Source: Mycolicibacterium gadium
Lineage (GTDB): Bacteria; Actinomycetota; Actinomycetes; Mycobacteriales; Mycobacteriaceae
DNA length: 64,000 nucleotides
Assembly (NCBI RefSeq): GCF_010728925.1
Contig: NZ_AP022608.1
Location: forward strand, 3,720,001 to 3,784,000
Direction of reading: 5' to 3'
How positions within the stretch are numbered: the stretch's first letter is position 1; every line of letters starts with the position of its first letter. The position numbers and the translations under genes were made by a program. Shown here one piece after another: positions 10,095 through 44,571 of the stretch. Below the pieces are notes generated by a model. That model saw only the letters and a list, made by a program, of their open reading frames with translations. It ran no database searches and was not told the origin of the DNA.

Positions 10095-11146
10095 GAGGCC
10101 GGTGCCGCTTCTTGTTCGCGCTTGATCTCCAGCGCAATGTCGATCAGCTGGTCCTCCTGGCCGCCGATCAGCTTGCGCTGGCCCGCGCGGTGCAGCAGTT
10201 GGTGCGCGGGCACGCCGTAGCGCTCGGACTGGCGGATGGCGTGCTTGAGGAAGCTCGAGTACACGCCGGAGTAGCCCATGATCAGCGCGTTGCGGTCCAG
10301 CAGGCACTCGGCCGGCATGGCGGGTGCGACGACCTCTTCCGCGGCGTCGGCGATGTCGAAGAAGTCGATGCCGGTCTTGACGCCGATCTTGTCGAACACG
10401 CCGATCAGCGCCTCGACCGGTGCGTTGCCCGCACCGGCGCCGAACCGGCGACACGACCCGTCGATCTGCTTGGCGCCCGCCCGCACGGCCTCGATGGAGT
10501 TGGCGACGCCGAGGCCGAGGTTCTCGTGGCCATGAAAACCGACCTGAGCGTCATCGCCGAGCTCGGCGACCAGCGCCGAAACTCGGTCGGCCACGCCCTC
10601 GAGCACCAGCGCACCCGCCGAGTCGACGACGTAGACGCACTGGCAGCCGGCGTCTGCCATGATGCGTGCCTGCGCCGCGAGTTTCTCGGGCGGAATCGTG
10701 TGGCTCATCATCAGGAAGCCGACCGTCTCCAAGCCCAGCTCGCGGGCCAGGCCGAAGTGCTGGATCGACACGTCGGCCTCGGTGCAGTGGGTGGCGATCC
10801 GGCAGATCACCCCGCCGTTGTTCTGCGCCTCCTTGATGTCCTCTTTGGTGCCGACGCCGGGCAGCATGAGGAAGGCGATCTTGGATTCCTTGGCCGTCTC
10901 GGCGGCCAGCTTGATCAGCTCCTGCTCCGGGGTCTTGGAGAACCCGTAGTTGAAGCTGGACCCGCCGAGCCCGTCGCCGTGGGTCACCTCGATGACCGGA
11001 ACGCCCGCAGTGTCCAGCGCCGCGACGATCGCCTGCACCTCGTCCTTGGTGAACTGATGACGCTTGTGGTGGCTGCCGTCGCGCAGCGACGTGTCCGTCA
11101 TCCGGATGTCCCACATGGGATTGAAGTAGATCTCGTCAGTGCTCAT
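10091..11146 (-). CDS. hsaF: 4-hydroxy-2-oxovalerate/oxohexanoate aldolase HsaF
   Basis: 351-residue DRE-TIM aldolase. It cleaves 4-hydroxy-2-oxoacids from the steroid A/B-ring fragment to pyruvate and propanal, passed to HsaG. R22-D23 in DTSLRDG and the metal histidines H205 and H207 ([10 protein letters not shown]) are visible. Length and sequence fit the DmpG/HsaF family. The start overlaps the hsaG stop (ATGA). Position equals Rv3534c. Confidence 0.96.
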
Positions 11147-39651: not shown

Positions 39652-39665
39652 AGCAAGTGCTTGCT
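39652..39665 (+). promoter_or_regulatory. KstR2 operator between the SDR operon and echA20
   Basis: AGCAAGTGCTTGCT is a perfect 14-bp palindrome matching the KstR2 pattern ANCAAGNNCTTGNT, with flanking ACC/GGT extending the symmetry. KstR2 represses genes for degradation of the C/D rings and responds to HIP-CoA. It can serve both the SDR/TRAP operon and echA20-ipdABC. Confidence 0.9.
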
Positions 39666-43137: not shown

Positions 43138-43210
43138 TGAAGTCTGAAGCTTCATTTCTTCAAAATGAAGCTATAATCTTCATATGTCCGATATGAAGTA
43201 CCAGACTTCA
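43138..43210 (+). repeat. Three palindromic sites TGAAG-N7-CTTCA at exact 28-bp spacing
   Basis: Copies lie at 43138-43154, 43166-43182 and 43194-43210, each followed by T. Spacer sequences differ, so only the arms are conserved. The first overlaps an additional inverted repeat (43148-43157 with 43163-43172), the second contains TATAAT, the third lies inside the satD coding start. The layout looks like a cooperative operator array. SatD carries a C-terminal helix-turn-helix and is the natural candidate to bind it. Confidence 0.85.
43172..43177 (+). promoter_or_regulatory. TATAAT -10 element of satD, leaderless start
   Basis: A consensus TATAAT ends six bases before the satD ATG, so transcription would begin at or next to the start codon, giving a leaderless mRNA. 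No ribosome-binding site is seen. It lies in the spacer of the middle palindrome, so a bound repressor would block it. Confidence 0.75.
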
Positions 43211-43837
43211 TCAGGCGTACGCGCTGCGCTGATCGGAGACGTCGTCGGCTCACGTCACCTCGCCGATCGCGGCGCCGTTCACGTCGCGCTGAAAGACGCG
43301 TTGCGCGACGTCGGCGCGGGCGCGATCGATCCGCCGGCGTTCACGGTCGGCGACGAATTTCAGGGCAGCTACCGCAGCGTCGGCGCGGCGATCGACGCCG
43401 CACTGTCCATCAGGCTCGCCGTCGCAACCCACATCGATGTCCGATTCGGCATCGGCTGGGGCGCGGTGTCGGTGCTCGATCCCGAGCGCGGTATCCAGGA
43501 CGGTCCGGGTTGGTGGGCGGCACGTGAAGCGATCGAGTGGACGGCCGCCGCGCAACGGCAACCCGGGCTGGCCTTGGTTCGCACGTCGTTCCGGGTCAAC
43601 GGCGTTGACCGCGCAGACGCCGACGCCATCAACGCCGCCCTGCTGTGTCGGGACCATCTGCTTGGATCGCTGGACGACCGATCGGTACGGATAGTGAAGG
43701 GCCTGTTGACCAACCAGACGAAGAAGGACATCGCCGCCGCCGAGGGCATCAGCGCATCGGCGGTGTCCCAGCGCGCCGGGCGCGACGGCCTTGACTTGAT
43801 CGTCGTCGCATCGCAATACCTGCGTGGTGTCCCGTGA
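43184..43837 (+). CDS. SatD-family protein with C-terminal helix-turn-helix
   Basis: 217 residues. ALIGDVVGSRHLADR, FTVGDEFQGSYRSVGAAIDAAL and FGIGWGAVSVLD are SatD-family blocks, a fold with nucleotide-cyclase-like flavour but no established activity. The last 40 residues (KKDIAAAEGISASAVSQRA) form a helix-turn-helix. It overlaps the next gene by GTGA. The pair is placed between ipdC and an alcohol dehydrogenase, where M. tuberculosis has fdxB and Rv3555c. Likely autoregulated through the palindrome array. Confidence 0.82.
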   Translation: MSDMKYQTSSGVRAALIGDVVGSRHLADRGAVHVALKDALRDVGAGAIDPPAFTVGDEFQGSYRSVGAAIDAALSIRLAVATHIDVRFGIGWGAVSVLDPERGIQDGPGWWAAREAIEWTAAAQRQPGLALVRTSFRVNGVDRADADAINAALLCRDHLLGSLDDRSVRIVKGLLTNQTKKDIAAAEGISASAVSQRAGRDGLDLIVVASQYLRGVP

Positions 43838-44571
43838 GCGCGCTCGCGGTGATGCTGATCGCGATGGGCATCGCCGATCTGACGCGGCGGTTGACCGACC
43901 GGTCCTGGGTGCCGCCCGTCGTCGCGGTGGCTGTGGTGATTGCGTCAGCGGCGCTCGCGGGGCTGTGGCACCCCCGCGACATCGTGCTGCTGGAGATCGC
44001 CATCGCGGCGAGCGTCACGTGGGTCGTGCTGTGCGCGCGCTCCGAGCGAACCGGCGACAGCCAGCTGGCTCCGCTGGTTGTGTTCGCCACGGCGGTCGGT
44101 CTGCTGATTCTGTTGTCGGGCTTGGGGTCTGAAGCAGGCGGCCTGGTGCGGCGATGGTCGACGTGGGTCGACCTGCCAGGCATCGCAGACTTGGATCCCG
44201 ACCGGATACTCATGGTCGTCGCGGTGGTACTCCTGCAAATCGTGACCGGTAACCAGTTGGTGCGGCTGGTCCTCGCCTCGGTCGGTGCGGTGAAGCCCGC
44301 CGGCCAACCGCAGGCATCGGATCGACTCAAGGGCGGTCGTCTGCTTGGCCCGATGGAACGGCTGCTGATTCTCGGGCTCGGACTGGCCGGTCAGCTCGCG
44401 GCCGCCACCGCGGTGGTCGCGGCCAAGAGCATCATCCGGTTCCCGGAAATCAATGCGCAGAAGGCCCGTGAGAACGGGCACATCGGGATCGATGACGTCA
44501 CGGAGTACTTCTTGGTCGGCAGCTTCGCCAGCTGGATCGTGGCACTGGGCGGGCTGGTTCTCGCGCAGTGA
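43834..44571 (+). CDS. DUF3307-like polytopic membrane protein, partner of SatD
   Basis: 245 residues with six or more hydrophobic segments, a polar region KGGRLLGPMERLLILGLG typical of proteins paired with SatD, and a conserved cytoplasmic RFPEINAQKAR stretch before ITEYF-like DVTEYFLVGSFASW. Function unknown. GTG start overlaps the satD stop, so the two are co-translated. The pairing of SatD with a membrane protein of this kind recurs in other bacteria. Confidence 0.8.
   Translation: MSALAVMLIAMGIADLTRRLTDRSWVPPVVAVAVVIASAALAGLWHPRDIVLLEIAIAASVTWVVLCARSERTGDSQLAPLVVFATAVGLLILLSGLGSEAGGLVRRWSTWVDLPGIADLDPDRILMVVAVVLLQIVTGNQLVRLVLASVGAVKPAGQPQASDRLKGGRLLGPMERLLILGLGLAGQLAAATAVVAAKSIIRFPEINAQKARENGHIGIDDVTEYFLVGSFASWIVALGGLVLAQ

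Follow-up and report, generated by a model that had tools for sequence, protein, structure and literature searches.

Introduction

What function is served by three TGAAG-N7-CTTCA palindromes set at a constant step over the start of a satD gene, and which protein would read them? The SatD family (PF16264) takes its name from the sat operon of Streptococcus mutans, and the gene considered here lies in a mycobacterial genome. According to excerpts of one study of Streptococcus pyogenes, satD is essential in the strains tested while being accessory in the species, with 178 of 249 genomes carrying it, and the same excerpts describe the gene as unstudied in streptococci other than S. mutans (PMC11323703). 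Among the literature matches listed, from a search outside which most subscription journals fall, none dealt with a SatD operator, DNA target, sensor or cyclase-like domain.

A reading of the sequence alone had proposed that SatD represses its own leaderless transcript cooperatively through these palindromes. We followed this proposal through the window (the whole 64-kb stretch of DNA analysed), through mycobacterial and more distant satD loci and through the predicted structures of the encoded proteins. We consider it probable, at roughly 0.87, that the three palindromes are SatD's own operators and that SatD autorepresses at its promoter, a judgement drawn from comparative sequence evidence.

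Results and discussion

A phased array over the satD promoter

The features of the locus on which the argument depends are as follows.

43138..43154, no strand assigned: predicted operator copy 1 (TGAAG-N7-CTTCA), lying 5′ of the -10 box
43166..43182, no strand assigned: predicted operator copy 2, holding the -10 box and followed by 1 base and the start codon
43172..43177, + strand: -10 promoter element TATAAT, conserved in the 63 thinned loci described below
43184..43186, + strand: satD ATG, at which a leaderless transcript would probably have its +1; the -10 element ends 7 nt ahead of it
43194..43210, no strand assigned: predicted operator copy 3, within satD codons 4-9, rare codons kept
43184..43837, + strand: satD, encoding a 217-aa SatD family protein (PF16264), the proposed autorepressor
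43834..44571, + strand: unannotated gene for a polytopic membrane protein, the proposed operon partner, with a 4-bp overlap with satD

The sequence-only reading described the arms as equal, the spacers as unlike and the centres as 28 bp apart, all of which is exact in the window, where the copies start at 43138, 43166 and 43194 and are centred on 43146, 43174 and 43202. TATAAT does lie within the middle copy, which ends at 43182 and is separated from the ATG at 43184 by the single base 43183, and the third copy is indeed within the coding region, spanning parts of codons 4 to 9. A consensus scan of the satD region detected no match to the -35 consensus and no full sigma-70 promoter. The -10 hexamer 7 nt before the ATG, conserved together with it, fits a probable leaderless start for satD.

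A 64-kb stretch of this base composition should contain 0.02 exact sites by chance, and triples with 28-bp spacing should number about 2e-15. With one mismatch at most, the window contains four sites, the three of the array and one at 11122 (shuffled sequences: mean 0.91, largest 3). The complete 5.96-Mb genome holds five exact sites, two of them outside satD and both of these inside long ORFs, and two matches to a reversed control pattern. Copy 1 also contains a perfect 10-bp palindrome, TGAAGCTTCA, at 43145-43154, and an additional out-of-phase CTTCA lies just past it at 43158-43162; neither was found in the majority of relatives. Elsewhere in the window, two palindromes of the form CAAG-N2-CTTG, which we take to be a KstR2-like motif, occur at 39654 and 49441 (2 found, shuffled mean 0.49).

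Conservation across mycobacterial satD loci

The mycobacterial comparison used the best 80 of the 184 satD loci found, all of them named. The same arms and the same 28-bp phase, as the sequence-only reading would have them in related mycobacteria, were present in 80 of these 80. Copy 2 matches 8-10 of the 10 arm bases in every one of the best 80 and stands one base before an in-frame start; since the locus anchor demanded an in-frame start codon at a fixed distance from copy 2, the free result here is the match score and not the distance. Copy 3, 28 bp downstream and within the gene, likewise matches 8-10 of 10 arm bases in 80/80, and copy 1 is weaker, with at least 8 of 10 in 46 of the best 80 and 7 or fewer in the other 34.

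Conservation per position was computed on 63 of the best 80 loci, thinned at 75 % identity. In copies 2 and 3 the arms are near invariant, with one arm position of copy 2 occupied by G or T. Conservation is close to background in the copy 3 spacer and, in the flank, between -80 and -49; the copy 2 spacer owes its conservation to the -10 box it contains. A nitronate monooxygenase homologue is found upstream of satD, 45 to 2196 bp away, in 74 of the best 80 loci, so that the difference between arms and flank holds within largely syntenic DNA. As far as conservation can tell, the array is an operator kept by selection and not a product of chance.

Copy 3 offers a second view of the same constraint, as it has to be accommodated within codons. 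Codon 9 is TCA for 76 of its 78 serines in the best 80 loci, against 66 of 946 serines elsewhere in the same genes. At codon 8, NCT is used in 76 of the best 80 although the residue itself varies (A 29, P 27, S 15, T 8, N 1); elsewhere in these satD genes, NCT codons account for 2-4 % of their codon families. The N-terminal tail encoded at copy 3 is modelled as disordered, with pLDDT below 50 for residues 1-5 and a mean of 54 for residues 1-10. In one genome (G034) the array is placed one unit further upstream so that the last of its three copies directly precedes the start codon, and the SatD protein, beginning MERATLIGD, is without the tail that copy 3 encodes; the coding copy therefore does not exist for the sake of the protein. 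Judged by these codons, copy 3 is kept within the gene by selection on DNA and not on protein.

Joint presence of the array and satD

Among 396 genomes of the genus, a SatD match was found in 150 and the double pattern, allowing at most 3 mismatches, in 152. Comparison of the two lists by eye gave 146 genomes with both satD and the array, 4 with SatD only, 6 with the pattern only and 240 with neither; the reversed control pattern was counted in 10 of the 396. The SatD match of one of the four SatD-only genomes is a fragment (G121), two have weak partial matches (G234 and G255) and the remaining one (G195) keeps a single copy with the usual start missing. In one pattern-only genome (G120), which has no SatD match, the monooxygenase gene carries a tandem array at its 3′ end (L216, 1707-1779), possibly a scar of satD loss.

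In genome G000 the double pattern occurs at satD alone. The satD arrays of G221, G275 and G208 have four copies at the 28-bp step in place of three. A wider regulon was sought in eight genomes picked for having three matches to the double pattern (G208, likewise with three, is outside these eight) and was not adopted: the third match is part of the satD array in two of them, G221 and G275, and in the other six it lies at a separate place with 2-3 mismatches. Two of those six weak matches, L260 (G345, 1423-1467) and L277 (G286, about 1425-1469), have no sequence in common and look like chance occurrences at gene starts.

A cyclase-fold domain joined to a helix-turn-helix

The encoded protein belongs to PF16264 by sequence (E 9.8e-15, 55.2 bits against a cut-off of 29), and 3,038 protein clusters match it at E <=0.001, which marks the family as large; the family comparison was made on actinobacterial genes. 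Three parts of the protein are relevant here.

43214..43669, + strand: SatD nucleotide-cyclase-fold domain, about residues 11-162
43676..43825, + strand: SatD C-terminal helical part with the helix-turn-helix, residues 165-214
43754..43783, + strand: recognition helix, residues 191-200, in which Ala191 varies with the operator

The C-terminal helix-turn-helix recognised from the sequence alone has its counterpart in the modelled helices 180-187 and 191-200. This part is alike to sigma region 4 and KorA-like helix-turn-helix proteins by weak matches, namely to SigF region 4 (8jzt, E 0.0064) and, in one relative, to Sigma70_r4 and KORA below the Pfam cut-off, while no match exceeds any curated cut-off. 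Some database entries of the family (P0039, P0070 and P0228) carry the label 'RNA polymerase subunit sigma-70', which the cyclase-fold domain does not bear out.

The N-terminal domain has the fold of a nucleotide cyclase. The catalytic set of class III nucleotidyl cyclases, which we take to include two Asp, an Asn and an Arg, is incomplete in SatD: D19, D57 and Arg114 are kept, and Trp110, invariant in 96 sequences, stands at the presumed place of the Asn. We consequently do not file SatD as a cyclase. It differs from class III enzymes of the Rv1900c and Ma1120 type both in this tryptophan and in having a helix-turn-helix in place of their other partners. The domain may still bind nucleotide, and the fold makes a nucleotide signal plausible.

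A phage or plasmid origin of the gene was considered and ruled out: tblastn with SatD gave zero matches among 50,697 phage records and matches in 3 of 72,556 plasmid records, one of which aligns with the greater part of SatD at 38 % identity, and there was no PHROGs or PADLOC match.

The phase persists while the arms change

A profile of five SatD proteins, searched in genomes of the class and the order, gave matches in 100 of 394 and 44 of 200 genomes respectively, weak ones counted. Forty loci from outside the mycobacteria score at least 100 against the profile. By residue 191, TGAAG-type palindromes are present in 17 of 18 Ala or Pro loci and 2 of 15 Gln loci among them; the 4 whose motif is unreadable have none, and of 3 others 2 have them. 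The distant set was formed from 116 profile-match loci, less 5 duplicates and 15 mycobacterial loci, leaving 96, and 84 once 12 without a readable motif are set aside. The periodicity table covers 78 of the 96 (six with x = E, D or T left out) and the residue-base count 74 of the 96. Near-identical loci stay in this set, and one of the 96 (L233) is a cyclase ORF and not SatD.

Distances between repeated 5-mers were counted with no motif assumed, longer repeats being scored more than once. The top distance is 28 bp in all four groups: 379 pairs against 7.5 shuffled in mycobacteria (best 80 of 184 loci), 90 against 3.6 in the Ala/Pro/Ser/Val group (25 loci), 29 against 2.5 in the Gln group (21 loci) and 104 against 6.8 in the Arg/Lys group (32 loci). 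Control stretches 275-425 bp upstream in the three distant groups gave 2, 4 and 7 pairs at 28. Counted by locus, some 5-mer is repeated at 28 in 79 of the best 80 mycobacterial loci, 8/12 with Ala, 8/9 with Pro, 24/30 with Arg, 2/2 with Lys and 3/10 others; the Gln group is the weakest for phase, at only 8 of 21. The arms change between families, from CTTCA to CTTAT and related words to CTTGC, and the phase stays.

The change in the arms follows the recognition helix. Among 63 called loci, the fourth base of CTTN and the class of residue 191 agree in 55 and disagree in 8, whereas 10,000 shuffles gave a mean of 22.4 and a maximum of 37; a further 11 of the 74 loci were uncalled, 9 of them Gln, relatives are counted many times in these figures and the half-site spacings for base calling were picked after some loci had been viewed. 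By class, Ala or Pro goes with C in 16 of 19 called loci, Gln with A in 11 of 12 and Arg or Lys with G in 28 of 32. Pairings of Arg with G and of Gln with A are classic protein-DNA contacts. In mycobacteria the fourth base is C in 76 of the best 80 loci (of 184), and residue 191 is Ala or Pro wherever readable (14 of 15 loci).

Tree tests, run on trees of the N-terminal domain, contain 1 to 3 well-supported independent pairs each, too few for significance. Opposite-way pairs are almost nil in these few-pair tests for Gln with A and for Arg/Lys with G; for Ala/Pro with C there are 1.0 opposite and 1.7 expected-way among 2.7 informative pairs, and for the pairing of Gln with a lost TGAAG palindrome 1.0 expected-way and 0.5 opposite (two supported pairs, averages). 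That the arm base varies together with the recognition helix of SatD suggests that SatD controls its own gene.

An overlapping gene for a membrane protein

The membrane protein at 43834-44571 is without a match in Pfam, NCBIfam, PADLOC and PHROGs, and its model (mean pLDDT 82) found no PDB match at E <=0.001. A homologue follows satD in 79 of the best 80 mycobacterial loci (of 184) by tblastn. By ORF, a membrane protein is downstream in 78 of the same 80, with the 4-bp overlap in 76, and such an ORF is close by in 82 of the other 96 loci, overlapping by 4 bp in 61. Downstream sequence of 394 to 1467 bases was available in 13 of the 14 misses, so some of these are real absences or products of the simple ORF rule. 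A conserved core is common to twelve aligned sequences of the membrane protein.

A model for autorepression

The C-terminal helix-turn-helix would be the part by which SatD dimers bind TGAAG-N7-CTTCA. At 28-bp intervals, the dimers would extend from about -46 to +27, a stretch that includes both the -35 region and the -10 box as well as the probable start and the initial codons of satD, and by occupying the -10 box and start they are proposed to block RNA polymerase. satD and the overlapping membrane-protein gene would in this way be held at a low level as one operon. The activity of the repressor is probably set by the cyclase-fold domain, perhaps via nucleotide binding, a weaker part of the model. 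We infer binding, repression, dimer geometry, cooperativity and co-transcription from the arrangement of the locus and its conservation. A conserved operator lies at the gene's own promoter and goes with the gene across genomes, as would be looked for in an autorepressor. The 28-bp step corresponds to about 2.67 helical turns, which would leave neighbouring dimers on different faces of the DNA and counts against the model.

The unit resembles toxin-antitoxin operons, whose DNA-binding protein acts as repressor of the operon that encodes it, in that two genes share a promoter overlaid by operators and the first of them encodes the proposed DNA-binding protein. It differs from them in the fold of SatD, in the evenly phased operators that run into the coding region and in its polytopic membrane partner, and a search of the unit with PADLOC gave no match.

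Other readings of the array

That the palindromes are the operator of another, unlinked regulator which controls satD we consider unlikely. The type of regulator that we take to be known for the satD gene neighbourhood, KstR2, is a different protein and in this respect leaves room for such a factor. The arms, however, differ between families in step with SatD's recognition helix, the array is nearly restricted to genomes with satD, with the double pattern of G000 at satD alone, and the presumed KstR2-like pattern is located at 39654 and 49441 and not at the array. KstR2 itself was rejected as the binder of the array since its motif, as we assume it, is absent there. It is also distinctly improbable that SatD acts as an activator when bound to the array, or switches between activation and repression depending on a ligand. 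The upstream extension of some arrays, to four copies in G221, G275 and G208, would suit an activator; the -10 box within copy 2 and the position of copy 3 downstream of the probable start would not. Bacterial operators over the -10 box or downstream of the start are usual for repression.

There is very little likelihood that the palindromes work as RNA or DNA hairpins and not as protein sites. Their arms are complementary and copy 3 would fall within the mRNA, but the second arm position can pair in only 37 of the best 80 loci (of 184) in copy 2 and 44 in copy 1, the arms are conserved as sequence rather than as pairs, copies 1 and 2 precede the probable start and hairpins need no fixed 28-bp step. 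We give next to no credence to chance, or to mere synteny in which the stretch is inherited with the gene without selection. The upstream neighbour common to 74 of the best 80 loci does indicate joint inheritance of a large part of the region; on the other side, the -80 to -49 flank is at background where the arms are near invariant, rare codons are kept, and composition predicts only the 2e-15 triples given above. In our view the contrast between arms and flank and the codon evidence refute this reading.

Significance for the SatD family

Autorepression by SatD through the phased array would give this neglected family a likely and specific molecular job. Beyond what had been read from the sequence alone, the analysis adds the cyclase-fold domain, the overlapping membrane-protein gene and the change of arms between families. 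More tentatively, and with rather more doubt than confidence, actinobacterial SatD proteins might be one-component regulators in which a degenerate cyclase reads a nucleotide, a code of one residue and one base selects the operator, and the array shuts a leaderless promoter so that a membrane partner, costly if unregulated, is made on signal only. If true, signal-gated production of such a partner would explain how satD can be accessory yet essential in streptococci. The essential yet accessory satD of S. pyogenes, as described in the excerpts cited, suggests that the membrane partner may be harmful unless checked (PMC11323703), and the array in this respect offers an idea on why the gene has both properties. 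The findings provide a predicted binding code for SatD across Actinobacteria, raise the question of what the cyclase-like domain senses and point to a family of unannotated membrane proteins as the likely object of SatD control.
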